A DNA stretch of 64,000 nt. Origin: Brenneria bubanii (GTDB lineage Bacteria; Pseudomonadota; Gammaproteobacteria; Enterobacterales; Enterobacteriaceae). Position numbers and translations under genes: made by a program. Positions 40,636-60,662 of this stretch are shown piece after piece (the first letter of the stretch is position 1; the number at the start of each line of letters is the position of its first letter). The notes under the pieces are model-generated. The model was not told the origin of the DNA, made no database searches, and saw nothing but the letters and a program-made list of their open reading frames with translations. Where the stretch lies: assembly GCF_022378355.1 (NCBI RefSeq), contig NZ_JAKMAJ010000003.1, positions 342,222 through 406,221 of the forward strand. The letters are read 5' to 3'.

Positions 40636-40726
40636 TCGTTCCTGAGGCGCGCCGGCTGAACCCGCTCGTGTTTAATATCGCTCAAAATTAAAGGAGGGGA
40701 TTTCCCCTTCTTTACTGGGGTTATGT

Positions 40727-41404: not shown

Positions 41405-41414
41405 AGAGCGGAAT

Positions 41415-45558: not shown

Positions 45559-45624
45559 ACCGCCGCTCGGCCGGCCGCGCCGGGGGCGGTCGACATCGAC
45601 CACTTAACCTATTGAGAACCCGCC

Positions 45625-46305
45625 GTGACCAGACTCATCACCTTAATCGTTCTTTGGCTGTTTTCAGCCGGCGCGCAGGCGGTTTATTTTGACGCCATTA
45701 TTTACGAGATGCCGGCGGACAGAGACTTTATTGCCAGGCCGCTCGTTAATGACACGCCAAACCATAATATCTACCGCATTTCCGCCTACCGCATAAATCG
45801 CCCCGGAGCAGCCGGCGAACGCCGGTTGCCGATGGAAAACGGCGAATTGCTCTACGCGCCGTTGAAATTCACCGTCGCCGCCAGCGGCAAAGAGTACTTC
45901 AAAATTTATTATCGCGGCCCGCGCGATGATAAAGAGCGCTATTATCGCATCACCTTCAAAGAGTCGCCGCTGAGGTTGTTTCCGTTTAAATCGACGACCC
46001 AGAATACCTATATCCTGCCTGTGGTCGCCATGAACACCATTTTGGTGGTGCGGCCGAGAACGCTGCATTTTTCCTACCGTTTGGATGAACGCCGCGCAAC
46101 CTTGCAAAACAACGGCAATACTTTTTTCCGCGTCATCATTCAAAAAGGCTGCAATGGCGATGATGAAAGTTCGACCCAGTTTTATATGCTGCCCGGCGAA
46201 ACCTATAAAAACAAAAATCTCAGCGAGAAAAACAAGAAATATATCGTGGCGATGGGGAAATATATAAAACTCGGAGAACGCTGTTTTAATCATCTTTCGC
46301 AATAA
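45625..46305 (+). CDS. ecpE: Second common pilus chaperone EcpE
   Basis: A 226-residue chaperone beginning with GTG at 45625; no in-frame ATG lies close by with a better site. The signal is LITLIVLWLFSAGAQA. The Ig-like fold pattern contains FKIYYRGPRDDKERYYRITF, close to EcpB. E. coli EcpE has 236 residues. It sits 66 bases after ecpD and closes the ecp operon. Confidence 0.9.
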   Translation: MTRLITLIVLWLFSAGAQAVYFDAIIYEMPADRDFIARPLVNDTPNHNIYRISAYRINRPGAAGERRLPMENGELLYAPLKFTVAASGKEYFKIYYRGPRDDKERYYRITFKESPLRLFPFKSTTQNTYILPVVAMNTILVVRPRTLHFSYRLDERRATLQNNGNTFFRVIIQKGCNGDDESSTQFYMLPGETYKNKNLSEKNKKYIVAMGKYIKLGERCFNHLSQ

Positions 46306-46619: not shown

Positions 46620-47180
46620 ATGAGAATTGTCGTGGGAATAACGGGAGCGAGCGGTGCTATTTATGCCTACACGCTTATTTCCGCGCTCTATCAGCAATCC
46701 GTCGAAATAGAAATCGTCGCCAGTAAAATGGGCTGGCAAGTTCTGGAATTCGAATGCGGGGTCTCCAGAGACGATATCGCCAAATTCGGTACGGTACACG
46801 ACAACGATGATCTATTCGCCCCCATCGCCAGCGGATCCTATCGGTGCGACGGCATGGTCGTGGTCCCCTGCTCGATGAATACGCTGGGCGCGATGGCCAA
46901 CGGCATGGGCGATTCTTTACTGTTAAGAGCCGCCTCGGTCACGCTTAAGGAGAGGCGGCCGTTATTGGTCGTGCCGCGCGAAACGCCGCTCAGTATTATT
47001 CAGATCGACAATATGGCGACGCTCGCCCGGGCCGGCGGCATCATTATGCCCGCCGCGCCGGGCTTCTACTCCCGCCCCACCAAGCTCTCGCAACTGGTCA
47101 GCGGCATGGTCGGCCGGATGATGGACAATCTGGGAATAGACAATGATGTGGCTGCCCGCTGGGACGGGGGGCGATCATGA
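46620..47180 (+). CDS. Flavin prenyltransferase, UbiX/Pad1 family
   Basis: A 186-residue protein making prenylated FMN, the cofactor of UbiD-type decarboxylases. The start at 46620 gives MRIVVGITGASGAIYAYTLI, the family's FMN-binding start. Other signatures: VVVPCSMNTLGAMANGMGDS, LLRAASVTLKERRPLLVVPR, and PAAPGFYSRPTKLSQLVSGM. GGAAT lies before the ATG. The next gene, a UbiD homologue, overlaps by ATGA, so the pair works as one unit, as in BsdBC/VdcBC aromatic decarboxylase pairs. It is the first gene of the BMC operon. Confidence 0.92.
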   Translation: MRIVVGITGASGAIYAYTLISALYQQSVEIEIVASKMGWQVLEFECGVSRDDIAKFGTVHDNDDLFAPIASGSYRCDGMVVVPCSMNTLGAMANGMGDSLLLRAASVTLKERRPLLVVPRETPLSIIQIDNMATLARAGGIIMPAAPGFYSRPTKLSQLVSGMVGRMMDNLGIDNDVAARWDGGRS

Positions 47181-48523
47181 ACCGAAAAGACCTGCGCGGC
47201 TTCCTCGCCACGCTTGAACAACATAACCTGCTGCGGCGCGTCACCCGCACCGTCAGCGCCGATCATGAAGCCGCCGCGCTCATCAAGAAGACCGACGGCA
47301 AGATCCCGCTCTATTTCGAGCATATCGACCACTACGCCACGCCGCTGGTGGCCGGACTGGGCGGCACCAGACAAACGCTGGCCTTGAACCTGGGCGTCAA
47401 GCCGGAGGATCTGGTCGCCAGGCTGGCGTCGGCCATCGTCAACCCCATCCCGCCCACTCAGGTCACGCAGGCGAATGTGCAGCAAAACGTGGTGAATGCG
47501 CCGTTCGATCTGGATGCCTACTTCCCGGTTTTGCGCTACAGCGATCGGGACCCGGGACGTTTTCTGGTTTCCGGCGTGATGACCGCGACGGATATCAACG
47601 GCGTCAAAACCTACACCTCGATTCGTCGCATGCAGTACCTGGGCGGCAACCGCTGCTGCCTGTTGGTGACATCTCACGACATGAAACAGCAGATCCGCTA
47701 TTACGAAAGCCGGCGCCAACCCATGGAGATCGCCGTTATGTTCGGCGTTAATCCGGCGGTCATTCTGGCTTCACAGATCAGCACCCATACCTATAACGTC
47801 GACAAGCTGGCCGTGACCGGCGCCCTGCTGGATCAGGCGCTGGAGGTGGTGCGCGCCAAAACCGTGGATATCAACGTGCTGGCCGATGCCGAAATGGTGC
47901 TTGAAGGCCATCTCTACCCCTGGATAAAAGAGACGGAAGGCCCCTTCGGCGAGCTCGCCGGCTACTACGGCGGGGTATCCCAGCAACCGGTGGTGGAGTT
48001 CTCCGCGATGACCTTTCGCAATCACCCCATTACGCAAACCATACTGGCGGGCAGTTGCGAAGAAAAACTGCCGGAAGCCATCGCCAGAGAGGTCACATTG
48101 CTGGCGGCCGTGCGGCAGACCGTCCCCGGCGTGACCGCCGTCCATATTTCCCTCGCCGCGGTAGGTCGCTTTCATGCGGTTATCCAGCTTGATAAAACAT
48201 CGCCGGGCGACGGCAAACAGGCGGTACTGGCCGCATTCAGCGCCGACAAAGACCTTAAACACGCCGTCGCCGTCGACGTCGACGTCGATCTCTTCAGTGC
48301 GCAAGACGTCGAGTGGGCCATCGCCACCCGCGTACAGGCTGACATCGATGTCTTTATTATTCCCGGCGCCAATGGCTCGCCGCTTGAGCCGTCGCACCTT
48401 GAGCGCGGCATGACGGCCAAAATGGGCATTGACGCCACCTGTCCTCTCGGTAACGCCGCATACCGGCGGGTTTCCATTCCCGGCGAGGCGGAGATGAACA
48501 TTTCGGACTACATCCATGACTAA
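47177..48523 (+). CDS. UbiD-family prenyl-FMN decarboxylase
   Basis: A 448-residue enzyme that reversibly (de)carboxylates unsaturated or aromatic acids using prenyl-FMN. The catalytic Arg is in YTSIRRMQYLGGN, and the Glu pair in KETEGPFGELAGYY (EGPFGE). It also has NPAVILASQ and a C-terminal PGEAEMNISDYIHD. Length and motif spacing are those of the BsdC/VdcC group. Here it is followed 15 bases later by a shell gene, so its substrate is unlikely to be ubiquinone precursors. The substrate is unknown. Confidence 0.92.
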   Translation: MNRKDLRGFLATLEQHNLLRRVTRTVSADHEAAALIKKTDGKIPLYFEHIDHYATPLVAGLGGTRQTLALNLGVKPEDLVARLASAIVNPIPPTQVTQANVQQNVVNAPFDLDAYFPVLRYSDRDPGRFLVSGVMTATDINGVKTYTSIRRMQYLGGNRCCLLVTSHDMKQQIRYYESRRQPMEIAVMFGVNPAVILASQISTHTYNVDKLAVTGALLDQALEVVRAKTVDINVLADAEMVLEGHLYPWIKETEGPFGELAGYYGGVSQQPVVEFSAMTFRNHPITQTILAGSCEEKLPEAIAREVTLLAAVRQTVPGVTAVHISLAAVGRFHAVIQLDKTSPGDGKQAVLAAFSADKDLKHAVAVDVDVDLFSAQDVEWAIATRVQADIDVFIIPGANGSPLEPSHLERGMTAKMGIDATCPLGNAAYRRVSIPGEAEMNISDYIHD

Positions 48524-48538
48524 TTCAGGGGCGGCATT

Positions 48539-48826
48539 ATGGCAGCGGTAGGCTTAATCGAAACCAGAGGACTGCCGGAAGCGCTTGAGGCGCTGGACGC
48601 GATGTGCAAGGCGGCGAACATCGGCATGATCGAAACCAAACGCATCGGCGGCGGGCTGGTCACGCTAATTGTAAACGGCGACGTCGCCGCGGTCAGCGCG
48701 GCCGTAGACTGCGGCGTCAGCGTGCTGAAACGCAATGGGGGCGAGATTATCTGTTCCTGCGTGATCCCTAATCCGCACGCTGATTTATCAAAATACCTAA
48801 CGGCGGGAGCGTCAATCAATGGATAA
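48539..48826 (+). CDS. BMC-H shell protein 1 (PduA/EutM-like)
   Basis: A 95-residue hexameric shell protein. It starts MAAVGLIETRGLPEALEALD and has AMCKAANIGMIETKRIGGGL, then LIVNGDVAAVSAAVDCG, the BMC-H pattern. In PduA the pore loop reads IGSGLVTV; here it is IGGGLVTL, so the pore would be lined by glycine and wider. Two or three Cys are in the C-terminal half (CGVSV, IICSCVIP). Overlaps the next gene by 8 bases. Confidence 0.93.
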   Translation: MAAVGLIETRGLPEALEALDAMCKAANIGMIETKRIGGGLVTLIVNGDVAAVSAAVDCGVSVLKRNGGEIICSCVIPNPHADLSKYLTAGASING

Positions 48827-49640
48827 GTTTGTCGAAAATATTGTGGACAGCGTACTGGGCGCCAGTGCAAAACCGGATGACGGCCTCTCCCGCCCAAACT
48901 ATCAGCGCAGGAAAACGCAGAGCCGCCTTATCGTGAGCGAGATAACGCCGCCATCCGACGCGTCGGGCGACGCGGCGCCGACCGCCGCCGATCCCTGTCC
49001 CGCCATACGGCGGGCGTCGCTGGCGGCAATGGTTCCTTGTCAGGCCGCCGAGCCGCCGGCGCAACCCGCCCGCCAGGGGTGTCGGTGTCAATCGTCGGGC
49101 GCGACCTTTCAGCAGGTGGACGACGCGCCGCGTTCCCTCGGCGACGTGCTGAGCATCCGCCTGCGCGGCGGCGAATCCATCGTCAGCATCTCCGTGCTCT
49201 GCGCCGATACCGGGCGGCTGGTCGCCAGCGATGAACTGCTGGATCGTCATCATATCGGGCCGGAAGCCATAACCTATGCAACCGTTGGTCAGCGCGAACT
49301 GCTCATCGCCTTCGCCGCCGACGCCGCAACGGCGACCGCGCTACTGGGCGAGCTGCGCACGCTTTGGCAGGGGTGTGCAAACTGCGGGCAAGGCGCCCTG
49401 TCGCCCGCGCCTTCAAGCAAACTGCTCAATCACCTCGGCATCGCGCGCCGCGGCGCCCTTGGCATCGTGGAAGGACGCAACGCCGCCGAGGTCACCGCCG
49501 CGCTGGGCGTTTATCTGAAAAGCGCGGCCAAAACGGACGTGCGGCTTATCGAGCGCGCGGCATGTCTTCACGGCAGCCTCGATGCGGTACGCAGCGGCGT
49601 TGAACTGTTGAATTCAATCATGGCGACCATCAGGCGGTGA
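48819..49640 (+). CDS. Cysteine-rich protein with shell-like (BMC-T-like) domains, not recognised
   Basis: A 273-residue protein of uncertain family. Residues 1-18 (MDKFVENIVDSVLGASAK) look like an amphipathic encapsulation helix. A linker follows, with Cys at 60, 74, 88 and 90. A middle domain (about 105-182; IVSISVLCADTGRLVASDEL, then RELLIAFAADAATATALLGE) and a C-terminal domain (about 212-273; GALGIVEGRNAAEVTAALGV, then LDAVRSGVELLNSIMATIRR) each resemble a degenerate BMC fold, and CANC lies between them at 186-189. It may be a divergent tandem-domain shell protein (BMC-T) or a scaffold that binds cargo to the shell, perhaps holding a metal or Fe-S site. The overlap with its neighbours shows it belongs to the operon. 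Confidence 0.55.
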   Translation: MDKFVENIVDSVLGASAKPDDGLSRPNYQRRKTQSRLIVSEITPPSDASGDAAPTAADPCPAIRRASLAAMVPCQAAEPPAQPARQGCRCQSSGATFQQVDDAPRSLGDVLSIRLRGGESIVSISVLCADTGRLVASDELLDRHHIGPEAITYATVGQRELLIAFAADAATATALLGELRTLWQGCANCGQGALSPAPSSKLLNHLGIARRGALGIVEGRNAAEVTAALGVYLKSAAKTDVRLIERAACLHGSLDAVRSGVELLNSIMATIRR

Positions 49641-49645
49641 ACGTT

Positions 49646-49933
49646 ATGCAACGAAGAGCAATGGGATTCGTCGAAACCGTCGGCTTCGCCAGCGCCATCA
49701 TGGCGGCGGACGTAGCCCTGAAAGCAGCCAACGTCGCGCTGATCAGAATGGAGTCGGTGATTGGCGTAGGTAAAAGTATCGGCGTAACGGTTTATTTCAC
49801 CGGCGATGTCGCCGCCGTACAGGCGGCGGTGGAGCGCGCCAAATCGGCGGTTTCCGCACTTGATACATTGGTTTCGGTCCACGTCATCGCCAGTGTCGAT
49901 ACCGAGACGCAAGCAAAACTTATCCGTATTTAG
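49646..49933 (+). CDS. BMC-H shell protein 2 (divergent)
   Basis: A 95-residue hexameric shell protein. It has [20 protein letters not shown] followed by [20 protein letters not shown], then [20 protein letters not shown]. The helix pattern and the GDVAAV motif are typical of BMC-H. The pore region (IGVGKSIGV) differs from the usual IGSGLVTV. A GTG at 49637 overlapping the previous stop would add three residues. A Met at 49646 is used. Confidence 0.85.
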
Positions 49934-49958
49934 TCACTATCACAGAGGGGAACACATC

Positions 49959-50264
49959 ATGCAGGAAGCTTTAGGGCTTATTGAAACCAAAGGCCTGGTC
50001 GGCGCTATTGAAGCAGCCGATGCCATGGTCAAAGCAGCCAATGTTGAAATCACTGGCTATGAAAAAATCGGCTTCGGGCTGGTCACCATCATGATCCGCG
50101 GCGACGTCGGCGCAGTCAAGGCGGCAACGGACGCCGGAGCCGAGGCCGCTCGTCGCGTGGGCGAAGTGACGTCGGTGCACGTTATTCCGCGCCCGCACAG
50201 CGAAGTGGAGAAAACGATTCTGGCCGGCCCGAGCGTCGGCGTCAAAGCGAAAACCGGCGCATAG
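49959..50264 (+). CDS. BMC-H shell protein 3 (PduA-like, phenylalanine in the pore loop)
   Basis: A 101-residue protein very close to Pdu[21 protein letters not shown], then [40 protein letters not shown] and [20 protein letters not shown]. Where PduA has IGSGLV, this has IGFGLV, putting Phe39 in the pore. AGAGGGG lies 9 bases before the ATG. It is probably the main shell facet protein of this compartment. Confidence 0.95.
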
Positions 50265-50321
50265 GGTCCGCGGTCAGCCGATGTTACGTCGTCACGTGAA
50301 TCGCGGTTTATCTGGAGTTGA

Positions 50322-50930
50322 ATGACGATGTCGTCAGTACTGGTGATCTATCAACAAGGTTTGCACGCGCGCGGGCTGGCGCGGATCCTCAGCGCGCTGG
50401 GGCGGCTGCCGGTAAGGCTCTCCACCTGCACCTTCGAGCAAGAGACGGATCGGCCTCAGCCGCTTGAACAGGATATCGAGGCGTTGCTGGCGCGCACTGA
50501 CCGTCTGGTTATCGCGGGCGCCACGTTGAATTTACTGCGTCAGACGGTCGAGCTCGACGACCGCCGCCCGCTGTGCGCGCTGGTGCTTTACGCCCTGGCG
50601 ATGGGCATTGCCGTATCCGCGGTGCGCGAGACGATCGATCCGCGCCTTTATCTGCCGCTCAAAGGGCAATCCTCGGTTCAGTTCGGCAGACGAATCGACG
50701 AACTGCTGTCGGAATTAGCTTCATTGGGTATCGATATCGTGCCGGAGTCGGCGCTGGCGTCCATGGACGGGTGCCGACCGGCGCAGGCGATCGTGACGCT
50801 TAAAGATGTTCAGCAGGCCGCCGCTCAGGGCGACCCCATATCGGCAAGTTTCGGCGGACGCTTTACGCCGGCGGCCAAAGATTGGCTGCGCGAATACGCC
50901 TTACGGCAAACGACACAGGAGAAGGTGTAA
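50322..50930 (+). CDS. Flavoprotein-fold protein of the BMC operon
   Basis: A 202-residue protein not clearly assigned. The stretch DRLVIAGATLNLLRQTVELD, then ALVLYALAMGIAVSAVRETI, resembles the flavoprotein (UbiX/Dfp-type, PF02441-like) fold, where an Asn-Leu pair follows the sheet and binds FMN. Members of this family are known in other BMC loci as accessory proteins with unclear roles. ATG 50322 and 50328 are both possible; TCTGGAG lies upstream. It overlaps the next gene by one base (taATG). Confidence 0.5.
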   Translation: MTMSSVLVIYQQGLHARGLARILSALGRLPVRLSTCTFEQETDRPQPLEQDIEALLARTDRLVIAGATLNLLRQTVELDDRRPLCALVLYALAMGIAVSAVRETIDPRLYLPLKGQSSVQFGRRIDELLSELASLGIDIVPESALASMDGCRPAQAIVTLKDVQQAAAQGDPISASFGGRFTPAAKDWLREYALRQTTQEKV

Positions 50931-51208
50931 TGAAGCTTGGATTAGTGATCGGGCAGGTTATCGCTACGCGCAAGGATCAACGGCTGGTGGGCTGCAAACT
51001 GCTGATCACACAGCCTATTCGTCCAGACGGCAGCGCCATCAGCGATCCCGTGGTGGCCATCGATCTGCTCGGCGCCGGCGAAGGCGACCGCGTGCTGTAC
51101 GCATCGGGTTCTGTCGCCTCCAGAGTGCCGCGCGATCCCTCCGCACCGGTGGATGTGGCGATCGTGGGCATCGTCGATAGCGTCGATTGCGCCTCGAATA
51201 TCAAATAA
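50930..51208 (+). CDS. BMC-P vertex protein (EutN/CcmL family)
   Basis: A 92-residue pentamer-forming protein that caps the shell's vertices. It begins MKLGLVIGQVIATRKDQRLV and has GCKLLITQPI, AIDLLGAGEGDRVLYASGS and DVAIVGIVDSVDC, the EutN/CcmL pattern. The family is usually 85-100 residues. A complete BMC needs at least one, and only this one is present in the window. Confidence 0.95.
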   Translation: MKLGLVIGQVIATRKDQRLVGCKLLITQPIRPDGSAISDPVVAIDLLGAGEGDRVLYASGSVASRVPRDPSAPVDVAIVGIVDSVDCASNIK

Positions 51209-51221
51209 TGGGAGAAAAACA

Positions 51222-53039
51222 ATGACGCAAGCCGCCTCTCTTGCTCGGCGGATGAGCTGCTATCGCCGTATGATAGACAAACTGCTGGATCACGGACAGT
51301 TCGCCGATCTGGTGCTGCGCGGCGGCACCCTGGTCAACGTACTGACCAGAGAGCTTTATCAGGCCGACGTCGCGGTTGCCGGCGAATACATACTGTTGGT
51401 CGGCGACTGCGGCGAGCTGGTCGGCCCCAAGACGCAGCTTATCGATGTCGCCGGGAAATTCATCGCCCCGGGATTCATCGACTCGCATATGCATTTTGAG
51501 AGCGCCATGCTCACGCTCTCCGAGTTTTCCCGCTTTTCCATCGCGTCGGGCACCACCACCCTATTCGCCGATCCGCATGAAATCGGCAACGTCAGCGGCA
51601 TAAGCGGAATTGGCGCCATGCTGGAGGAAGCCGCCACCCTGCCGAACCGCGTCTTGTTTACCGTCCCCTGCCTGACGCCGGATATTCCCGGGTTTGAAAC
51701 CGCAGGCAGCGAAATTACCTCGCGTAATCTTGATGCCCTGATCAAACACCCGCTGGTGCAAGGACTGGGGGAAATGCAAGGATTCAGCAGCGTCCGCCCC
51801 GTCTATTCGCGCTCGCCGGCGATCGTCGACGATCTGCTGTCGAGCGTCTTTCAGGCTCATGAACGGCACAAAACGGTGGAAGGCAATGCCCCTTCGCTGT
51901 TCGGCGCCGAGCTGGCGGCGCATATTCTGGCCTGCGGCGGACGAACCTCCTGCCACGAGACCACCAGCAAAGACGAATGCGTTGAAAAACTGAGGGCCGA
52001 CGTCACGGTCTTCATGCGAGAGGGCTCGACGCAGAAAAATATGGCCGAATGCATCAGGGCCGTGACGGAAGAAGGCATGGATTCCCGAAATCTGGTGCTG
52101 GTCAGCGACGATATGCTATCGGAGGATCTGGTTAACTTCGGCCACATGAATGAGCTGATCCGGCGCACCATCGCTCAGGGCATCGACCCCGTGGAAGCCA
52201 TTCAGATGGCGACCATCAACGCGGCGCGTCATTTTGGCCGTAACGACATCGGTTGCCTGGCGCCGGGCAAGGCGGCGGATATTGTCATTATCCGCGATCT
52301 GCGCACCATCGACGTCGAAATGGTGATCATGGGCGGACGACTGGTGGCGCAAAACCGCCAGCTGCTGATTGATATCCCGCGCTACACCTATCCCGACGCG
52401 GTCAAATCCACGGTCAAACGCCAGGCCGTCAAGCCGGATGAGCTCAAAGTCGCGGCCGGCGGCAACCGCGCCGATGTCCAGGGGCTGGTTATCGTACCCG
52501 ATCAGAATATCACCCATGCGTTCTCCGCCGCCCTGACGGTGGAGAACGGCTGGGTGACGCCCGATATCGCGCAGGACGTATTGCCGATCGTGGTGGTGGA
52601 GCGCCACGGGCGCAGCGGCGACATCGGCAAAAGCTTCGTCAAAGGCCTGGGTCTCAGAGAGGGCGCCATTGCGCTCAGCGTCGGTCACGATACGCACAAT
52701 ATCGTGGCGTGCGGCGCCAACTACGTCGATCTTTCCATCGCCATCAACCGGGTGATCGCCATGCAGGGCGGCCTGGCGCTGGTTAAAGACCATAAAGTCG
52801 TCGGCGATATGCGGCTGCCGATAGCGGGTCTGATGACGGACGAATGCAGCGCCGAAGAGGTTAGCGCGCGGCTGACCCTGCTGGACGACAAAGCGCGCGA
52901 GTCGCTTGGTTGTCATCTGCATGCGCCGTTCATGCACCTGTCATTTCTGACGCTGGTGACCAGCCCAAGCCGTAAAATCACCGACAAGGGGCTGGTCGAT
53001 ACGGAAAATCTGCGGCTAATTGACACGATCATGCAGTAA
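51222..53039 (+). CDS. Adenine deaminase-like amidohydrolase with a changed metal ligand
   Basis: A 605-residue protein of the adenine deaminase (Ade) family. Motifs: FIDSHMHFESAML (His89, His91), ADPHEIGNVSGI, GLGEMQGF (Glu184), SCHETTSKDE (His245), FMREGSTQKNM, SDDMLSEDLVNFGH (Asp297), and CLAPGKAADIVII. In E. coli Ade the fifth-strand histidine lies in a DGHCPG segment; here the same place reads EGNAPS with Asn222 (codon AAT at 51885-51887). Adenine may therefore not be the substrate. Its partner genes suggest another amino- or amide-bearing heterocycle. GGAGAAAAAC precedes the ATG at 51222. Confidence 0.85.
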   Translation: MTQAASLARRMSCYRRMIDKLLDHGQFADLVLRGGTLVNVLTRELYQADVAVAGEYILLVGDCGELVGPKTQLIDVAGKFIAPGFIDSHMHFESAMLTLSEFSRFSIASGTTTLFADPHEIGNVSGISGIGAMLEEAATLPNRVLFTVPCLTPDIPGFETAGSEITSRNLDALIKHPLVQGLGEMQGFSSVRPVYSRSPAIVDDLLSSVFQAHERHKTVEGNAPSLFGAELAAHILACGGRTSCHETTSKDECVEKLRADVTVFMREGSTQKNMAECIRAVTEEGMDSRNLVLVSDDMLSEDLVNFGHMNELIRRTIAQGIDPVEAIQMATINAARHFGRNDIGCLAPGKAADIVIIRDLRTIDVEMVIMGGRLVAQNRQLLIDIPRYTYPDAVKSTVKRQAVKPDELKVAAGGNRADVQGLVIVPDQNITHAFSAALTVENGWVTPDIAQDVLPIVVVERHGRSGDIGKSFVKGLGLREGAIALSVGHDTHNIVACGANYVDLSIAINRVIAMQGGLALVKDHKVVGDMRLPIAGLMTDECSAEEVSARLTLLDDKARESLGCHLHAPFMHLSFLTLVTSPSRKITDKGLVDTENLRLIDTIMQ

Positions 53040-53050
53040 GGAGCGGTTTT

Positions 53051-53746
53051 ATGGGCAGCAAAATCATCGATCTTTCGCAGGAAATTTATCAAGGCATGCC
53101 GGTTTTTCCACCGCATCAGCCGACGATGATTTTCCCTAACATCAGCCATGAGGAGAGCCTCAAGCGTTCGGGGTTCATGTTCGCGACCAATAACCTGTTG
53201 ATCAGCGAACACGGGCCGACCCATACCGATGCGCCCTACGAATACGATCCGCAAGGCGACACTATCGATCGCGTCGACCTTTCGCGCTTTTTTGGTCCGG
53301 CCTATGGACTGGATGTATCGCACGTATCCCCCGACGACTTTATCACCCGGCATGATATCGAGACCGCGCTGGCGCGCCATGGATTCACCCTGGCGCGCGG
53401 CGATATCATCATGCTCTACACCGGGCATTATCAACGCGCCTACGGCACCCCGGCGTGGCTGGATCGCTATACCGGCCTGGACATGGCCGCCGCCGAATTT
53501 CTGGCGCAGTCCGGCGTAGGCATGGTCGGCGTGGATTCGCCCTCCATCGACAAAACCGGCGACGACAATTTTTGCGGGCACACCGTTTGCCGACGTTCCG
53601 GCATGCTCAATACCGAGAACATGTGCAATCTGGACAAGGTGGCCGGCAAACGCTTTCTCTACATCGGCTTTCCACTGAAAATACGTAACGGCACCGGTTC
53701 GCCCGTCAGGGCTATCGCCGTACTTAACGAAGGAGAGAATCAATGA
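53051..53746 (+). CDS. Cyclase / kynurenine formamidase-like hydrolase
   Basis: A 231-residue member of the cyclase family (metal-dependent amide/ester hydrolases such as KynB and isatin hydrolase). The signature HGPTHTDAPYEYDPQG is near residue 57, a variant of HxGTHxDxPxH. Further segments are DIIMLYTGHYQ, VGVDSPSIDKTG and NLDKVAGKRFLYIGFPLK. The metal is probably Mn or Zn. It overlaps the next gene by 4 bases. In this setting it could open a ring amide or remove a formyl group. Confidence 0.85.
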   Translation: MGSKIIDLSQEIYQGMPVFPPHQPTMIFPNISHEESLKRSGFMFATNNLLISEHGPTHTDAPYEYDPQGDTIDRVDLSRFFGPAYGLDVSHVSPDDFITRHDIETALARHGFTLARGDIIMLYTGHYQRAYGTPAWLDRYTGLDMAAAEFLAQSGVGMVGVDSPSIDKTGDDNFCGHTVCRRSGMLNTENMCNLDKVAGKRFLYIGFPLKIRNGTGSPVRAIAVLNEGENQ

Positions 53747-54354
53747 CCCCGAGGGCACGGATCCGCGAACGTTTTGTTATTCCGCCTTACTCCGCCCACG
53801 CGGTGGAGGTATTGGCCGGCGAAGAGCTCTGTATTATTGATGTAGAGGGCCAGCAGGTCAGCGACTTTATTTGCTTTAACCGCGACGACCTCGCCGAGTT
53901 TGTCTCCCCAGTCCATATGCGCTCATCCCTGTCCAGCATTCGGCTGAAAATCGGCGATGCGCTTTACAGCAACCGGCGGGACAAGCTGATGACGCTGATG
54001 GAAGATACGGTCGGCAAGCATGACTTCTTCTTTCCGGCCTGCGATTACTATCGCTATAAAGTCGATTTTAACGTCGAAAATCATCCTAACTGTCATGATA
54101 ATCTGGTCAATGCGCTGGCGGAGCGCGGCGTACGGCTGAACGAAATTCCCGATCCCATCAACTGGTTTATGAATAACGCCATGGATGATGACGGCGATTA
54201 CACCATCAAGGCGCCGCTCTCCAGACCCGGGGATTTCGTCAGATTAAAGGCGCTAAAGAACTGTCTGGTCGCCTGCACCACCTGTTCTCAAGACTATGTC
54301 CCCGTTAACGGCATGAAGGTCACGCCCATCGAGCTGCAGGTTATTGCTGTTTGA
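53743..54354 (+). CDS. DUF1989 (urea carboxylase-associated) family protein
   Basis: A 203-residue member of DUF1989, a family found beside urea carboxylase and urea-amidolyase genes. Segments: VEVLAGEELCIIDVEGQQVS, DFICFNRDDLAEFVSPVHMR, then DYYRYKVDFNVENHPNCHDN and CLVACTTCSQDYVPVNGMKV. Conserved Cys and His suggest a metal or redox site. A likely role is in handling guanidine, carboxyguanidine or urea-type nitrogen; not shown for this one. It is the last gene of the BMC operon. Confidence 0.88.
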   Translation: MTPRARIRERFVIPPYSAHAVEVLAGEELCIIDVEGQQVSDFICFNRDDLAEFVSPVHMRSSLSSIRLKIGDALYSNRRDKLMTLMEDTVGKHDFFFPACDYYRYKVDFNVENHPNCHDNLVNALAERGVRLNEIPDPINWFMNNAMDDDGDYTIKAPLSRPGDFVRLKALKNCLVACTTCSQDYVPVNGMKVTPIELQVIAV

Positions 54355-54563
54355 GCGGAAATCGCTATCCCTCCCGGCGCCGCCGCCGCCGGAGAGGCCA
54401 ATCATCTCGTCTGATTTTACGTTTCGACGCGCGTCTCGTTTTGATGGGCGCGTTGATGTAATGTAATCATTTGAATTATCAAGTTAATCAAACAATCCAT
54501 TGTACTATTTCGCTAACTCTGCTAAGGCTCGCGTCCATCACGGCGCGATGAAAAGTCACTGAA

Positions 54564-55502
54564 ATGGCTACCAAATACGAAAATCTGAACGAAGTAGAAA
54601 TGTGGGCGTTTTCCCGTTTCGTACGCTATTTCTGCGCCACCGCCCAGCACGGCACCATGCGCCGCGCCGGGGATGAGCTGCATGTCTCCCCCTCTTCGGT
54701 CGATCGTCAGATACTCAGCATTGAGGAAAAATTGGGCGTCCGGCTGTTTGAGCGGCTGCCCCAGGGATTACGGCTCACCTCGGCCGGGGAGCTGGTGCTG
54801 TACCGGATTAACCGCTGGCAGCAGGAAATGAGCCAGCTTAAAATCGATATCGAAGATCTCAAGGGAATGCATCGGGGTCACGTTACGATAGCCATCGTTG
54901 AGGGCACCATCGAATGGGCGACATCCATCCTGGCCGGATTCCATCAAAAATACCCCGGCATCAGCTATGAGATTCAGGTTCACGGCGCCGATCAGGTCGT
55001 CAGACTGGTGCTGGAAAATATCGTCGATATCGGTTTATCCGTCAATCCGGCCATCATGTCCGGCCTGAAAGTACTGACGTCCATCGAGTTCAGATTAGGC
55101 ATTATCGCCAGCAGCAGTCATCCGATTAGCCAGCGGACTTCCGCCCGTTTATCCGACTGCATAGACTACCCGGTGGTGATACCGGACGCCTCGTTAACGC
55201 TGCGCGGAGTTATCGATCGGCTAATGACGACGTCGGTCACCGAGTTCAACGTGGTCGCCACCTCCAACAGTCTGCAAATGGTTAAACAACTGGTTTGCCA
55301 GAATGTCGGCATCGGGCTGGCGACCTATATCGATGTCGCCGACGAGATAAAAAACGGCAAAATCTGTTTTATTCCGTTGGAAAATCAGAACGTTCATCCC
55401 TCGTTTCTCTCCCTCTGTCTGGCGGAAAACCGTCAGCTTTCTCGCGTCACCACGCAACTGGTGAACGAATTTGATCACGCGATGAATGCGCTGCTGAACT
55501 AA
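54564..55502 (+). CDS. LysR-family transcriptional regulator of the BMC/ureide locus
   Basis: A 312-residue LysR regulator. The N-terminal HTH is AFSRFVRYFCATAQHGTMRR with AGDELHVSPSSVDRQILSIE, followed by KLGVRLFERLPQGLRLTSAG. The remainder is the two-lobe effector domain. It lies between the BMC operon (upstream, same strand) and the convergent hydrolase operon, so it is the obvious candidate controller of both. The effector is unknown. Confidence 0.92.
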   Translation: MATKYENLNEVEMWAFSRFVRYFCATAQHGTMRRAGDELHVSPSSVDRQILSIEEKLGVRLFERLPQGLRLTSAGELVLYRINRWQQEMSQLKIDIEDLKGMHRGHVTIAIVEGTIEWATSILAGFHQKYPGISYEIQVHGADQVVRLVLENIVDIGLSVNPAIMSGLKVLTSIEFRLGIIASSSHPISQRTSARLSDCIDYPVVIPDASLTLRGVIDRLMTTSVTEFNVVATSNSLQMVKQLVCQNVGIGLATYIDVADEIKNGKICFIPLENQNVHPSFLSLCLAENRQLSRVTTQLVNEFDHAMNALLN

Positions 55503-55600
55503 TCCTCTCGCCCTTTTTGCCGTCCTGCCCGCCGCCGATAATCCCGAGCCGTCTCGGTGGCGCCGGACGGCATGGCTACCGCCGTTTATCCCGGCTAACG

Positions 55601-57043
55601 CTAGGGTTGGATCACCTCAGAGGACGCGATGGGGGATGGCGCCAACGTCTTCTGCGGCGCCGCGTGGCGACGGGTGCGCATACTGCCGTAGGGCAAGCAC
55701 AGATTCATGATGATGGCGATGATGCCGCCGGCGCTGATGGGATTTTCCAGCAGCATCGAAATGCTGCCGGGCATCAGATGGAACACCTCCGGCTCATAAG
55801 AGATGCCTAACCCCAATCCCAGCGATGTCGCCACAATCAGCGTTTCTCGGCGGTCAAGTCCATGGGGGCCGGCCAGGATGATGCGCAAACCGGCCAGCGA
55901 AATCATGGCGAACATCAGCAGCGTGGCGCCGCCCATCACCGACGCGGGAATGGTGGTGAAAAACCGGCCGATAACCGGAAACAGCCCCATACCCACCAGA
56001 ATCACGGCGATGAATTTACCAACGTGACGCGATGCGACGCCGGTCATCTGTATGACGCCGTTATTTTGCGCGAAGGTGGTCAGCGGCAGCGACCCCATGG
56101 CCGTGGCGATCACCGACACCAGTCCGTCGGTCAGTACGCCGCCGGATAAACGGGAGGAGAAACTGTCGTTGTCGATGGCGCAATGCGAGACCATCGCCGT
56201 GGCGGTGATGTCGCCGACCGCTTCCAGCACGCTCAACAGATATATCGCGCCGGCCACCAGAAAAACCTGGAAGTCGAAGGTGAATCCATATTTGAACGGC
56301 ACCGGAATTGAAACCAGCGGCTGCCCCAGCAACGAAGAAAAATCCACCACGCCCAGCGCCAGCGCCGCCACATAGCCAACCAGCATGCCGACCACGATGC
56401 CGCTCATGCGCAGCACCGGCCGCTTGCTGCTATTGACGGCGATAACCACCACAATCACCAGCATACCCAGTCCAATATTCTGCAAACTGCCGAAGGTATT
56501 GCTTTTCATAGCGGCGAACCCGCCGGCGAAATCCACCATGCCGACTTTGATCAGACTGAGGCCGATCATCAGCACCACTACGCCGCTAACGGTCGGGGTG
56601 ATAACGCGTTTCAGGTACGGCAGAACGAAGGAGGCGCCGACCACCAGGAACGCCCCGACGAACGATACCCCCAGCAGGGTGGAAAGAATCAATTCTTCAT
56701 GCAAACCATCGCGCCGCATCGTCGATCCCAGCGCGATCATTACCGTGACAAAAGAAAAATTCACCGACTGAATCGACAGCAGTCCGGACCCCACCCGGCC
56801 ATAGCGGTTCACCTGCAGCCAGGTGCCGATACCGGAAGCGATCATGGCCATGGACACCATATAGGCGGTGGAATCATTCGACAATCCCAGCGCGCCGCCG
56901 ACAATCAGCGCCGGCGCCACCATGGGAACCAGAATGGCGAACAGATGGGTCAGCGCGCTCATCAGGGTTTGCAAAAGCGACGGTTTATCTTCCAGGGCAT
57001 AAATCAGGTCAGCCCCGGTTTCGGTTTCAGATAGCTCAGACAT
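55601..57043 (-). CDS. NCS2-family purine permease
   Basis: A 480-residue transporter with about 14 membrane segments. Start taken as ATG 57043 (MSELSETETGAD). The NCS2 signature QNNGVIQMTGVASRHVGKFI, near residue 320, matches the purine group of this family (xanthine and urate carriers) rather than the uracil group. The first helix carries the expected His (SALTHLFAILV). It is the last gene of an operon encoding ureide-type hydrolases, so it probably imports the pathway's starting heterocycle. Confidence 0.9.
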   Translation of the reverse strand: MSELSETETGADLIYALEDKPSLLQTLMSALTHLFAILVPMVAPALIVGGALGLSNDSTAYMVSMAMIASGIGTWLQVNRYGRVGSGLLSIQSVNFSFVTVMIALGSTMRRDGLHEELILSTLLGVSFVGAFLVVGASFVLPYLKRVITPTVSGVVVLMIGLSLIKVGMVDFAGGFAAMKSNTFGSLQNIGLGMLVIVVVIAVNSSKRPVLRMSGIVVGMLVGYVAALALGVVDFSSLLGQPLVSIPVPFKYGFTFDFQVFLVAGAIYLLSVLEAVGDITATAMVSHCAIDNDSFSSRLSGGVLTDGLVSVIATAMGSLPLTTFAQNNGVIQMTGVASRHVGKFIAVILVGMGLFPVIGRFFTTIPASVMGGATLLMFAMISLAGLRIILAGPHGLDRRETLIVATSLGLGLGISYEPEVFHLMPGSISMLLENPISAGGIIAIIMNLCLPYGSMRTRRHAAPQKTLAPSPIASSEVIQP

Positions 57044-57102
57044 TATTATTACTCCCCAAAGTGTTGCAACAATTCTTCTATCCCTGCCGGACCCAATGGA
57101 TC

Positions 57103-58377
57103 TCAATCGACAACCAGCCCTGCCAGCGCGCTAACGCATCGGGTCAATACTCGCGCGCACTGGTAAAGATCTTCACTGGCGGTGAATTCATCGGGATGAT
57201 GGCTAATGCCCGCGCGGCTTGGCGAGAAGATCATCCCCGTCGGGCACAACGTCGCCAGATTCAGCGCGTCGTGGAAGGCGCCGGAAATCAATCGCGTCGA
57301 AGCCGCGCCAAGCGCGGCGCTGTGCGTTTCAATCATGCGGATAATTCGGTCATCAAAGAGTACCGTCGGGCTGGCGAAAATAACCTCCGCCGATGCCCCG
57401 ACCGGCAGAAACGCCTCGATTTGACGGCTGACGTCATCCAATCGCGCCGCGTCGGGGTGACGCATATCGACCGTGAAGGAAACGGCGTTGGCGATGGTAT
57501 TGATGGCGTTGGGCGACGCCTGCCAACGGCCGATGGTTAAACGCAGCTCCTCGTCGCCACTGCGGGCAAGCGCCAGAATCTCGCCGGCCAGCTGCACGGC
57601 CTTGGCCATGGCGTCATCGCGCGCCGACAGCGGCGTGGTGCCGGCGTGGGCGCTCTGCCCGCGTACCGCTATCGACAGCCAGCGCACCGCCTGAATCCCC
57701 GTGACGCAGCCCACCGGCGTTTGAAGCCGCTCCAGAATCGGGCCTTGCTCGATGTGCGCCTCCAGATAAGCCTGCACGCCGACGCCGAGCGGTCGTCTGG
57801 CGAGCCGCTCGCCATGATCGGCAACAAAGCTCTCCATATCGCAACACGCCTGGCGACAGGCGTCGCTCATCCGTTGCCCGTCGCTGTCGGCGATCGCATC
57901 GAGTTCCGCCAAACGCGCCGGATGAGAAAATACGCCGGACCCGGTGAGGCCGGGAGAAAAACGCACCCCCTCCTCGTTATTCCAGATGACCACCTCAATG
58001 GGCGCCCGGGTCACGACCGCCGCCGCATCCAGCGCATCCAGCATTTCAAGCCCGGCGCACACGCCGAACGCCCCATCGTAGCGGCCGCCGGCCGGCTGTG
58101 TATCAATATGGCTGCCGGCCAGCACGCAAGGCGCCCGCGCCTCGCTCCCCGCACGGCGAATAAACAGATTGGCCGCGTCATCTACGGCGAGCTGATAGTC
58201 GCGCCGCGCCAGAAACGGCGCGACCAGCCAGCGACGCGCGGCCAGCTCTTGCGGACACAGCGCCAGACGGTCGACGCCGCCGTCGGGTCGGGCGCCGAAT
58301 TCGGCAAGGCCGGAGAGCCGGGAATTCAGTCTCGATGCGGATACGGCCGCCTCGGTTAGCAACGAATCTTGCAGCAT
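57103..58377 (-). CDS. M20-family allantoate / N-carbamoyl amidohydrolase
   Basis: A 424-residue zinc or manganese hydrolase. Metal ligands are visible in AGSHIDTQPAGGRYDGAFGV (His, Asp), WNNEEGVRFSPGL (Glu), LEAHIEQGPIL (His) and GISHHPDEFTA (His). The dimerisation segment has GQSAHAGTTPLSARDDAM. AllC-type enzymes (E. coli AllC, 411 residues) and HyuC-type carbamoyl hydrolases look alike, so allantoate or an N-carbamoyl amino acid are the candidate substrates. It is followed by the permease 59 bases later. Confidence 0.88.
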   Translation of the reverse strand: MLQDSLLTEAAVSASRLNSRLSGLAEFGARPDGGVDRLALCPQELAARRWLVAPFLARRDYQLAVDDAANLFIRRAGSEARAPCVLAGSHIDTQPAGGRYDGAFGVCAGLEMLDALDAAAVVTRAPIEVVIWNNEEGVRFSPGLTGSGVFSHPARLAELDAIADSDGQRMSDACRQACCDMESFVADHGERLARRPLGVGVQAYLEAHIEQGPILERLQTPVGCVTGIQAVRWLSIAVRGQSAHAGTTPLSARDDAMAKAVQLAGEILALARSGDEELRLTIGRWQASPNAINTIANAVSFTVDMRHPDAARLDDVSRQIEAFLPVGASAEVIFASPTVLFDDRIIRMIETHSAALGAASTRLISGAFHDALNLATLCPTGMIFSPSRAGISHHPDEFTASEDLYQCARVLTRCVSALAGLVVD

Positions 58378-58482
58378 GAGCGGTTAGGCTCCTCGGTATT
58401 GGGATGCTGATTAATAAAGGGCGCCGGACGACGCTCAGCCCACTGCTGAGTGATCCAAACGTCATCCGTAGCGCCGTTCGCC

Positions 58483-59094
58483 TTATTCCACGCGGTTTTC
58501 CTGATCGCCGCCGCCGACCCAGGGATCGCGCCCGGCCTCCCAGTCGGCCATGTAGTCATCGATGCTGATAATCTTCGAAAACAGACTCAGGTCGGTCAGC
58601 CCATGTTTGTGCATCTCGTCGTTCTTCGACTGAACGCCGTCGCTGAGCGTAATCACTTTATAAGCGTTGGCCAGCGCATCCGCGCCGGTTGACCGCACGC
58701 ATACATTGGTCCACACACCGGTCAGCACCACGGTATCGATGCTTTCCTCACGCAGATAAAGGTCAAGATCGGTATGCTGGAAACCGCTGTGCCGACGTTT
58801 CGGCACAATGTATTCATCTTCCTGCGGATAAAGTTCTTTGATGAAATCGGACCCCCAACTGCCCTTCACCGCATGTACCGGCCGCACGCGAAAGTCGGCG
58901 TCGTTCTTCCGGTGCGCTTCCTGAATGAAAACCAGCTCAATATCCGTTTTGCCCTGTTGACGGCGTTCACGCACCCAACTGAACAGGCGCTGTAGATTTT
59001 CGATAATCAAATCGCCGCCGGGACAGCGCAGCGGCGCCTTTTCGCCGATAAAGTCATTGAGCATATCGATAACGAGAATTGCGTGTTTGGCCAT
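58483..59094 (-). CDS. Isochorismatase-fold amidohydrolase
   Basis: A 203-residue cysteine hydrolase. The start is at ATG 59094 (MAKHAILVIDMLNDFIGE), with AAGGAATTAT upstream. The catalytic triad is Asp (VIDMLNDF), Lys (IVPKRRHSGF) and Cys (GVWTNVCVRSTGADALA). Relatives hydrolyse N-carbamoyl sarcosine, biuret, ureidoacrylate or nicotinamide. It lies 29 bases after the hydantoinase stop, so it probably cleaves the ureide product of that enzyme. Confidence 0.88.
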   Translation of the reverse strand: MAKHAILVIDMLNDFIGEKAPLRCPGGDLIIENLQRLFSWVRERRQQGKTDIELVFIQEAHRKNDADFRVRPVHAVKGSWGSDFIKELYPQEDEYIVPKRRHSGFQHTDLDLYLREESIDTVVLTGVWTNVCVRSTGADALANAYKVITLSDGVQSKNDEMHKHGLTDLSLFSKIISIDDYMADWEAGRDPWVGGGDQENRVE

Positions 59095-59123
59095 GGCATA
59101 ATTCCTTTGAGGTAACTGTTTGA

Positions 59124-60662
59124 TCAAGAGATGACGTTGTTAATGTTCTTCCGATGCACGTTGTCGAACAGATCGGAAGAAACCGCGCGGTAGTTGGCGA
59201 AGGTGATTTGATTGGTAAGCTGTTGAATCGACTGCCTACGAACGAACTGACCAAAGCCCGGCTTAACCAGAATCGTCCCCTGGGTCTCCTGCGCCGTCTC
59301 TTCATAAATCGTCTGCCCGCGCAGCACGGTTTTCACCACCTTGCCGGTCAGCTGCATGCCGTGCAGCGGCGTGTATTTGTTCTTCATAAAAGAGAGGTCT
59401 TTATCTATCGCCCACTGCTTATTCAGGTCGATAATGGCGAAATCGGCATCGGCGCCTACCGACATCGCGCCTTTTTTAGGGAACAAACCATAGTGGACGG
59501 CGGCGTTGCGGCTTAATACCTCGACCAGACGCTGCAAAGTCAGACGTCCCTGGTTGTAGCCCTCGCTAACGAGAATGTTTACCATGGTTTCGGTGCCGGG
59601 GATCCCCGGGAAAGCGGTCCAGATATTCATTCCCGGCGCATCTTTCTCTACCGGGACGTCGTCGAGATCCTTGTTGGCCTGTACCTTGTACGGCGCGTGA
59701 TCGGTCGCCACGAAGTCGATGCTGCCGTTGGCCAGCCCTTCCCACAGTTCCTTGTTATCCTGCTTGGTACGCAGCGGCGGCGCGATTTTGGCCATCGCGC
59801 CATAGGTGGTCATGGCCTCGGGCGCGTTCAGCACCAGATAGTGCGGGCAGACTTCGGCCGTGACGGCAAGCCCGCGTCGTTTGGCTTCGGCGACCAGACG
59901 AGCGCCAATACCGGTGCTCATATGCACCACATGGAAACGGCACTCGGTTTCTTCAGCGAAGGCGATCCCCAGTTGAATCGCCGCTTTCTCAGCCAGCTCC
60001 AGGCGCGCTTCCGACCATGCCGGACCGTCCAGACGGCCTTCGCCCTTATACTTGTTGACGTAGTAGTCGCACATGGCGAAGTTTTCGGCATGTACGCCGA
60101 CGGCAAGCCCGGTCTTCTCGACGATTTTGAAGACTTCGTGCATTTCAGGATCGGTCACGCGGTTATAGGTCGGCACCGACGGCGTCATATACACCTTGAA
60201 GGCGACGACGCCGACGTCGGCCTGCGCCTTGACGTTTTCCAGCCGCCCTTCGCGGACGTCTTCCCCGGTCACCCCGCCCCACATGGCGTAATCGACGATA
60301 GCCTGCGGCGCCACCGCATCCAGTTTCTCGTTCAGGGAGCTGACGTCGCGCACCGAACGCGGCGAAGAGCAACAGGGCATATCGATAATGGTGGTTACGC
60401 CGCCGGCCGCGGCCTGACTGGTTCCGGTCAGGAAGGTTTCGCGGTGGGTGAATCCGGGATCCATAAAGTGGGTGTGGGAATCGATGCAGCCCGGAATAAC
60501 CAGATTGCCTTCGGCATCAATGACTTCCTGCGCATCAACGGTCGTGCCGCAGGCCAGGAAGCCGGCGATCTTGCCCTCGGCGACAGCGATATCGACGTTT
60601 GCGACGTCGTTGTCCTTCATGAGAGGAATAACAGCATTTTTTATCAGCAGATCATAGGTCAT
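59124..60662 (-). CDS. Allantoinase/hydantoinase-type amidohydrolase with a C-terminal extension
   Basis: A 512-residue cyclic-amide hydrolase. Motifs: CIDSHTHFMDPGFTHRETFL (His, His), VAFKVYMTPSVPT (Lys expected to be carbamylated), GVHAENFAMCDYY (His), FHVVHMSTGIG (His) and DFVATDHAPYKV (Asp). It resembles AllB, including the LRGQTIYEE and GQFV ending, but goes on for about 38 residues after that point (RRQSIQQLTNQITFANYRAV and on). It starts the minus-strand operon. The substrate may be allantoin, a hydantoin or a dihydropyrimidine. Confidence 0.88.
   Translation of the reverse strand: MTYDLLIKNAVIPLMKDNDVANVDIAVAEGKIAGFLACGTTVDAQEVIDAEGNLVIPGCIDSHTHFMDPGFTHRETFLTGTSQAAAGGVTTIIDMPCCSSPRSVRDVSSLNEKLDAVAPQAIVDYAMWGGVTGEDVREGRLENVKAQADVGVVAFKVYMTPSVPTYNRVTDPEMHEVFKIVEKTGLAVGVHAENFAMCDYYVNKYKGEGRLDGPAWSEARLELAEKAAIQLGIAFAEETECRFHVVHMSTGIGARLVAEAKRRGLAVTAEVCPHYLVLNAPEAMTTYGAMAKIAPPLRTKQDNKELWEGLANGSIDFVATDHAPYKVQANKDLDDVPVEKDAPGMNIWTAFPGIPGTETMVNILVSEGYNQGRLTLQRLVEVLSRNAAVHYGLFPKKGAMSVGADADFAIIDLNKQWAIDKDLSFMKNKYTPLHGMQLTGKVVKTVLRGQTIYEETAQETQGTILVKPGFGQFVRRQSIQQLTNQITFANYRAVSSDLFDNVHRKNINNVIS

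Follow-up and report, generated by a model that had tools for sequence, protein, structure and literature searches.

Within a 64,000-nucleotide stretch of the genome of Brenneria bubanii (contig NZ_JAKMAJ010000003.1, positions 342,222 to 406,221; hereafter the window), two convergent operons very probably encode an oxygen-independent 'xanthinase' route of xanthine catabolism, the middle part of which would take place in a bacterial microcompartment (BMC) of the BUF1/Xau type, where BUF stands for BMC of unknown function. From gene content, homology, predicted fold, co-occurrence and phylogeny, we infer the catalytic roles, the enclosed proteins and the purpose of the shell. Papers are cited by their PMC identifiers.

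Two convergent operons and a candidate pathway

The initial annotation of the window had described an eleven-gene run at 46620-54354 with shell and UbiX/UbiD genes, and profile searches of the translations bore out each of these plus-strand calls one by one. The functional unit extends beyond this run: a second, convergent operon on the minus strand (60662-55601) adds the ring-opening enzymes, an amidase and a permease. All 17 genes of the locus (46620-62260), including two flanking genes described below, are intact open frames in the window. The genes of the two operons are as follows.

46620..47180, plus strand: UbiX-type flavin prenyltransferase, making prenylated flavin mononucleotide (prenyl-FMN) for UbiD (TIGR00421, 207 bits, cut-off 109)
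47177..48523, plus strand: UbiD-family decarboxylase, proposed 4-amino-5-imidazolecarboxylate decarboxylase (TIGR00148, 297 bits, cut-off 245)
48539..48826, plus strand: BMC-H 1 (PF00936, 88 bits)
48819..49640, plus strand: degenerate PduB-type BMC-T, a trimeric shell protein (N-terminal helix, RPNYQ motif, tandem BMC-like domains)
49637..49933, plus strand: BMC-H 2 (PF00936, 74.5 bits)
49956..50264, plus strand: BMC-H 3, EutM-like, the most conserved shell protein (PF00936, 104 bits)
50322..50930, plus strand: PduM/TIGR02536-like structural protein with the flavoprotein fold of UbiX and phosphopantothenoylcysteine decarboxylase
50930..51208, plus strand: BMC-P, pentamer vertex, EutN/CcmL (PF03319, 97 bits)
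51222..53039, plus strand: adenine-deaminase-like (Ade-like) amidohydrolase, proposed 4-aminoimidazole deaminase (PF13382, 192 bits; TIGR01178, 467 bits)
53051..53746, plus strand: Cyclase-family hydrolase, kynurenine formamidase/isatin hydrolase-like, proposed 4-imidazolonase (PF04199, 119 bits)
53743..54354, plus strand: DUF1989 protein, proposed N-formiminoglycine deiminase (PF09347, 174 bits)
55601..57106, minus strand: NCS2 nucleobase permease, xanthine/urate type (TIGR00801, 388 bits, cut-off 292)
57103..58377, minus strand: M20 amidase of the hydantoinase/carbamoylase family, proposed N-formylglycine hydrolase (TIGR01879, 335 bits, cut-off 204)
58483..59127, minus strand: isochorismatase-like cysteine hydrolase, proposed 4-ureido-5-imidazolecarboxylate hydrolase (PDB 3hb7)
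59124..60662, minus strand: cyclic amidohydrolase, allantoinase/hydantoinase-like, proposed xanthine amidohydrolase or xanthinase (XAH; TIGR03178, 359.3 bits, cut-off 357.9)

Xanthine would be imported by the NCS2 permease or supplied by the genome's xanthine dehydrogenase. XAH would open its pyrimidine ring to give 4-ureido-5-imidazolecarboxylate, from which the isochorismatase-like hydrolase would remove the ureido group, leaving 4-amino-5-imidazolecarboxylate. Inside a shell built of three BMC-H, one PduB-type BMC-T, one BMC-P and the PduM-like protein, UbiD with prenyl-FMN would decarboxylate this compound to 4-aminoimidazole, the Ade-like enzyme would deaminate the product to 4-imidazolone, and the cyclase-family enzyme would open the imidazolone ring to N-formiminoglycine. 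The DUF1989 protein would then release NH3 to yield N-formylglycine, which the M20 amidase would split into glycine and formate. 4-Aminoimidazole and 4-imidazolone are unstable, and their retention is a likelier purpose for the shell than the containment of a gas (CO2, NH3). Genes of the xanthinase pathway were reportedly described by Tong et al. 2023. The assignments build on the chemistry of anaerobic xanthine breakdown (PMC3519856, PMC6620236).

Assignment to the BUF1/Xau compartment type

BUF loci combine amidohydrolases, a deaminase, a carboxy-lyase, an isochorismatase and a formiminotransferase with shell genes (PMC4207490, PMC6620236). Ravcheev 2019 read the compartment as one for xanthine utilization in five Firmicutes genomes, arriving at xanthine by elimination from a set of nicotinamide, pyrimidines and purines (PMC6620236); the name BUF1 for this type is used in PMC8156839, and a xanthinase gene cluster, recently identified, is found in Clostridia and Bacilli (PMC12507026, citing Tong 2023). 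By its gene content, the window's locus belongs to the same type. It holds BMC-H and BMC-P genes together (three PF00936 domains and one PF03319) and a BMC-T protein at 48819..49640, along with amidohydrolases, a deaminase, a carboxy-lyase and an isochorismatase, genes that recur in the Clostridia and Bacilli loci. There is no aldehyde dehydrogenase core: aldehyde dehydrogenase, alcohol dehydrogenase and phosphotransacylase were found in none of the 17 scanned proteins of 46620-62260, as the initial annotation had claimed for the usual aldehyde chemistry.

A classical metabolosome of the Pdu, Eut or glycyl-radical kind would bring an aldehyde dehydrogenase and a signature aldehyde-forming enzyme; the locus has neither, and no second BMC locus was found in the genome. 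Because a search of the whole 4.89 Mb genome placed all the PF00936 domains that it found, three in number, in the plus-strand operon, no other microcompartment operon accounts for the shell genes, which disposes of the explanation that the initial annotation had itself named as fatal to its proposal. Its compartment class, a BMC of unknown function with hydrolases, agrees with the match to BUF1/Xau, and gene content and relatives support its suggestion of decarboxylation and deamination or hydrolysis of a nitrogen heterocycle; the annotation did not name xanthine, the BUF1/Xau type or the convergent operon, which holds the enzymes for the first two steps.

Compared with the BUF1/Xau loci of Firmicutes, the locus has in common BMC-H and BMC-P, the missing aldehyde core, and an amidohydrolase, isochorismatase, UbiD-type carboxy-lyase and deaminase. 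It differs in its Pseudomonadota host, its two convergent operons, its degenerate PduB-type BMC-T, xdh genes lying about 200 kb away, and a DUF1989 protein and M20 amidase in place of the formiminotransferase. The formiminotransferase (FTCD) listed for these loci by Axen and by Ravcheev is absent from the locus and the whole genome; as 30 Bacilli-side loci also lack FTCD, we read this as marking a variant and not as exclusion from the type. Likewise, the enzyme families and neighbourhoods are those expected from the xanthinase pathway of Clostridia and Bacilli (PMC12507026), but the host here is a gamma-proteobacterium.

Related loci and their gene order

We surveyed 81 loci, consisting of the best 80 of 211 isochorismatase matches and the locus of the congeneric genome G008 (L037); loci without an isochorismatase are invisible to this survey, and contig ends truncate several of those included. 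The 'clos' (L041-L078) and 'bac' (L079-L119) sets were split by list rank, not by taxonomy, so that L045 is labelled Calditrichales, L060 Lutibacter and L101 Pseudomonas. The remaining locus, L040, comes from a Rhodospirillales metagenome-assembled genome and carries UbiX, UbiD, three BMC-H, the BMC-T, PduM-like and BMC-P proteins, Ade, the cyclase, DUF1989, XAH and the isochorismatase at 38-89% identity. In Bacilli, the order is, for example in L112, NCS2, XAH, isochorismatase, UbiX, UbiD, shell genes, PduM-like, BMC-P, Ade, cyclase and DUF1989, with xanthine-dehydrogenase-type genes adjoining; in clostridial loci such as L057 and L042, the cyclase and FTCD genes precede XAH.

Of the 81 loci, 64 carry both Ade and BMC-P, and no locus has just one of them (64/64 of loci with either). 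UbiD occurs without BMC-P in five loci (L044, L070, L076-L078), three of them on contigs shorter than 10 kb, and BMC-P without UbiD in two (L098, L099). This distribution ties the compartment to the reactions that follow decarboxylation, in which the small imidazoles would arise. UbiD, Ade and BMC-P are all absent from 12 of 81 loci that have XAH and the isochorismatase, some of them cut; a pathway of two modules fits this occurrence of the ring-opening pair without matches to UbiD, Ade or the shell. Fetched stretches with XAH and isochorismatase but no Ade or shell were L073, L075-L077 (Thermosyntropha), L088, L100, L103, L105 and L106 (Paenibacillus); L073, L100, L103 and L106 end near a contig end, and L076 and L077 also have UbiD. 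Such short loci may represent an abridged pathway for nitrogen only.

Shell and structural proteins

BMC-H 3 has a median identity of 82-84% to its copies in 'clos' and 'bac' loci. The odd, shell-like protein at 48819..49640 is a degenerate PduB-type trimeric shell protein, with a helix at residues 2-13, RPNYQ at 25-29, a disordered linker and tandem BMC-like domains at 93-273. RPNYQ is invariant in alignment A1, in part by selection, most rows having been picked by that motif; a profile of the family also matches L083, L097 and L099, outside the motif-picked list. Like PduB of the Pdu shell (PMC12108088), it is a BMC-T with an N-terminal helix, but it is too diverged for the profile models. 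This diverged PduB is the probable shell-to-core linker of the compartment type. In clostridial loci (e.g. L042 12946-13287, L057 12929-13411), proteins of about 80-160 residues, many beginning MANPL or similar with a helix-like N-terminus, lie between BMC-H 1 and BMC-H 2, the slot of the PduB-like protein in Bacilli and the window.

As in the Pdu shell (PMC12108088), a PduM-like gene lies between BMC-H and BMC-P genes. Unlike PduM, the window's protein has a clear UbiX-type fold and no N-terminal extension; the extension of its Bacilli and Clostridia relatives is absent from both the window and L040. It scores 16.5 bits against the PduM family TIGR04493, below the cut-off of 50, and 11 of 19 aligned relatives match that family at E 0.05 or better. 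In alignment A2, the family links PduM with the 'ethanolamine utilization' proteins of TIGR02536 and with flavoproteins of the UbiX-type fold, a connection that would supply PduM with relatives and a fold.

Last stage: DUF1989 in place of FTCD

FTCD is the domain that handles formimino groups. Among loci with UbiD, BMC-P and Ade, its profile matches 22 of 30 'clos' loci and none of 30 'bac' loci; for DUF1989, the counts are 0/30 and 30/30. Across 27 whole genomes, FTCD is found in none of the 13 comprising L040 and 12 Bacilli and in 13 of the 14 others, and DUF1989 in all 13 and in none of the 14. These genomes were chosen from among the 80 loci, and the split tracks a single deep division together with the Pseudomonadota branch, which means that the counts are not independent. 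The exception, the 1.5 Mb genome of L068, has neither domain. The window's genome follows the Bacilli in this respect, with DUF1989 in the operon and no FTCD genome-wide. Because DUF1989 replaces the formiminotransferase across whole genomes, we predict that it acts as a formiminoglycine deiminase.

Formiminoglycine is an amidine-type compound, on which a comparison with carboxyguanidine deiminase can be based. That enzyme belongs to the DUF1989 family (PMC11410670, PMC11271267). The window's protein shares the family and most motif residues with carboxyguanidine deiminase CgdAB and with trimethylamine N-oxide (TMAO) demethylase, but falls in a separate subfamily, scoring 117 and 61 bits against cut-offs of 285 and 206 for the CgdAB subunits (TIGR03424/5) and 126 versus 1100 for TMAO demethylase. 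Neither guanidine carboxylase nor allophanate hydrolase was found among the 17 scanned proteins. Entry 9q5a of TMAO demethylase has Ala at two Asp positions of 9q59; when the window protein is aligned to 9q59, these positions correspond to its D41 and Q183. D41, Q183, C44, H114, C117, C181 and D184 are invariant in 34 DUF1989 proteins of BMC loci; at the sequence level, this group has thus conserved its motif, which nonetheless differs from the one in TMAO demethylase. The Gln at 183, where 9q59 has Asp, weakens the case for a folate-free exit.

An unlikely alternative gives the DUF1989 protein a structural or pseudo-subunit role, or guanidine or urea compounds as substrates, with formiminoglycine left to a host enzyme. 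Q183 speaks for this, as does carboxyguanidine deiminase, which is cited for having a cognate subunit that is inactive (PMC11271267), and the M20 partner varies between lineages. The mutual exclusion with FTCD in the 27 genomes and the invariance of D41, C44, H114, C117, C181 and D184 argue for a catalytic deiminase instead. As for that partner, the M20 amidase holds only partly as a conserved companion of DUF1989: the window's enzyme is of the carbamoylase family and the Bacilli M20 proteins are of the ArgE/DapE family, and tblastn found no relative of the former in L040-L119, only one in the congener (L037). In Fictibacillus L084, a deaminase-like amidohydrolase (5'-deoxyadenosine deaminase equivalog) takes the M20 place. 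Judged by sequence, N-formylglycine hydrolase is a weaker assignment for M20 than deiminase is for DUF1989.

The last stage thus probably differs from that predicted for Firmicutes and is folate-free. More tentatively, with the odds slightly against it, we propose that the xanthinase pathway has a second exit that needs no tetrahydrofolate, in which an amidase (the M20 enzyme in the window) takes over from a DUF1989 deiminase. Together with the shell, this exit would let facultative or aerobic bacteria run a pathway of anaerobes, and the Pseudomonadota version would have arisen by joining a clostridial-like pair of ring-opening enzymes to a separate shell operon.

Enzymes of the shell operon

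The UbiD decarboxylase carries three UbiD Pfam domains and lies next to UbiX, which is 75% identical in L040 and 48-60% identical in other loci. The best solved relatives of the cyclase-family protein are isatin hydrolase and kynurenine formamidase. The Ade-like protein falls below the adenine deaminase equivalog TIGR01178 (467.2 versus 472.5 bits). This near miss, together with up to 41% identity to proteobacterial Ade-like proteins, could mean a true adenine deaminase in an operon for general purine salvage, with a shell for the UbiD step alone. We consider this very unlikely, since a peripheral salvage enzyme would have no need of the strict pairing of Ade with BMC-P across 64 loci, and since the locus would otherwise have no protein to deaminate what UbiD produces. 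A deaminase of 4-aminoimidazole is the assignment we retain. Its N-terminal extension of about 25 residues was considered as an encapsulation peptide and rejected, as proteobacterial relatives (L017-L035) also have it, and the 4.4-4.8 kb stretches that hold them match none of the window's shell proteins. Across 65 sequences, the extension also has a low hydrophobic moment (mean 0.19).

Evidence for xanthine as the probable substrate

In the XAH tree, three Pseudomonadota sequences nest with five clostridial-type proteins of xanthinase-type loci (100/100), which points to the window's protein as the XAH orthologue expected of that pathway. Its identity is 83% in L040 and 81% in L042 and L045. 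With the isochorismatase as query, Clostridia loci reach 59-78%, Bacilli about 51-61% and L040 85%; its match to PDB 3hb7, from Alkaliphilus metalliredigens, scores 354.5 bits over 203 residues, with the next match at 90.6. At the XAH C-terminus, a stretch of about 40 residues in the window and L040, a possible targeting segment, is apparently missing from the relative in L057.

Xanthine-dehydrogenase-type genes lie beside many of the loci (FAD subunit cluster, 33/81; XdhC cluster, 17/81). In the window's own genome, XdhB scores 1161 bits against TIGR02965 (cut-off 849.5), and an XdhA frame, scanned in part, scores 315 bits, below its cut-off of 467. About 7-10 kb from these xdh genes, NifK/NifD-like frames were seen by eye (L123, G000:C3:180500-200400, at 16253-19844, minus strand). 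Purine riboswitches above the gathering score occur in four of seven Bacilli loci scanned (L080, L084, L112, L114), just ahead of xdh-type frames in L112 and L114 and of a deaminase gene in L084; the L080 riboswitch is not clearly connected with its locus. Glycine riboswitches occur in two of the seven (L079, L095). Beside L079 lie genes for serine hydroxymethyltransferase, L-serine dehydratase (the alpha subunit above its cut-off, the beta subunit slightly below), GcvH and formate dehydrogenase, and beside L095 a profile-matched GcvT with other glycine genes, by eye, as at L079. These are the expected sinks of the pathway's glycine and formate.

That the same hydrolases and UbiD act on another nitrogen heterocycle (urate, hydantoin, a dihydropyrimidine, or an imidazole or nicotinate derivative) is highly unlikely. 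Family annotations are broad (allantoinase/hydantoinase, carbamoylase, NCS2 permease, the last scoring 396 bits against 414 for the pbuX family TIGR03173), and PMC6620236 reached xanthine by exclusion; against this, XAH and isochorismatase are up to 81% and 78% identical to those of loci with xanthine-dehydrogenase-type genes and FTCD, and purine riboswitches and glycine-using genes stand beside some Bacilli loci.

Several observations nonetheless weigh against a compartmentalised xanthinase route. The proposed sequence of reactions is based on chemistry, the PMC6620236 prediction and what Tong et al. 2023 reportedly described (as cited in PMC12507026). The Ade-like protein is just about 5 bits short of an adenine deaminase, no encapsulation peptide was demonstrable on any enzyme of the locus, and the window's M20 is missing from the Bacilli loci, which carry another M20 or none nearby. 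No purine or glycine riboswitch was found in the six other loci scanned (L040 and five clostridial ones), and the window has no riboswitch at gathering level, the one radC-like match lying below its cut-off and inside coding sequence.

Distribution and origin

Two of 10 genomes of the genus, one of them the window's own, have the isochorismatase at E 1e-50 or better; samples at the level of the family (295 genomes), class (369) and phylum (398) yield it from the window's own genome only. The congener G008 has the locus at the same place, with fimbrial genes upstream; 15 of the 17 genes are covered nearly full length in one frame, with proteins 75-98% identical, the exceptions being UbiX, split between two fetched pieces, and BMC-H 1. 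The latter (L037 1654-1937) shifts frame near its end, by mutation or sequencing error, and its single-frame match is restricted to residues 1-77. The G+C content of the locus is 0.595, versus 0.523 for window positions 1-46000. Though this rarity (1/295 in the family sample), the G+C difference and the broken BMC-H 1 frame might suggest a recent foreign insertion, non-functional in this host, we regard that as extremely improbable given 17 open genes in the window and fifteen practically whole ones in G008 beside the same upstream neighbours.

By sequence, the locus is of chimeric ancestry, with a clostridial-like ring-opening pair and a shell operon from the Bacilli side. The XAH tree is described above; in the isochorismatase tree, the Pseudomonadota sequences stand among 'clos' rows (99/97). 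UbiD groups with 'bac' rows, from Bacilli BMC loci (100/99), and Ade falls on the 'bac' side of a 100/99 split, the exact placement in both trees being unsure owing to long Pseudomonadota branches (0.7-0.8). Median identities to 'clos' and 'bac' are 62/57 for XAH, 74/58 for the isochorismatase, 38/53 for UbiD and 52/63 for the cyclase. The loci labelled Pseudomonas sp. ISL-84 (L101) and Lutibacter sp. B2 (L060) nest in Cytobacillus/clostridial rows in the XAH and Ade trees and are probably mislabelled, or else transfers.

Window positions 1-25000 match E. coli chromosomes in 5358 of 5426 genomes at about 73%, over acnA, ribA, pyrF and other genes, in keeping with an enterobacterial gamma-proteobacterium as host. 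Nucleotide searches of E. coli genomes and of plasmids with the locus gave no match. Searching plasmids by tblastn, UbiD matched 417 records, none at 60% identity or above (best among those listed, 39%), the isochorismatase 987 records, none at 60% or above, and the BMC-T protein none. Two of the records matched by UbiD, a Geobacillus plasmid and an unannotated Azospirillum one, have no match to the window's shell proteins.

Surrounding genes

Two further genes complete the locus.

54564..55502, plus strand: LysR-type regulator, 209 bases downstream of the plus-strand operon (PF00126/PF03466)
61022..62260, minus strand: MFS transporter, aromatic acid/H+ type, upstream of the minus-strand set (PF07690; 92% identical in the congener)

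The MFS transporter has no relative in loci L040-L119 by tblastn. By eye, a minus-strand frame resembling phenolic acid decarboxylase (62346-62852) adjoins it, and a plus-strand fimbrial chaperone-usher-like cluster (40057-46305), syntenic in G008, lies directly upstream of the shell operon.

Implications

Among the open-access articles listed by our searches (main texts), we found no report of this compartment in an enterobacterium and none naming both DUF1989 and formiminoglycine. As far as the literature was searched, the compartment type is known, and the Pseudomonadota branch, its chimeric make-up and the variant last stage are new. The locus carries the proposed 'third paradigm' of BMCs, with neither aldehyde nor CO2 fixation (PMC4207490, PMC6620236), into a gamma-proteobacterium, and the whole-genome replacement pattern predicts a catalytic role for a clade of DUF1989. 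If the folate-free exit is real, a route of purine breakdown that was discovered in strict anaerobes can operate in Bacilli and in a branch of Pseudomonadota. The gamma-proteobacterial genes may be easier to handle than those of purinolytic clostridia, making both the xanthine hypothesis and the purpose of the shell directly testable.

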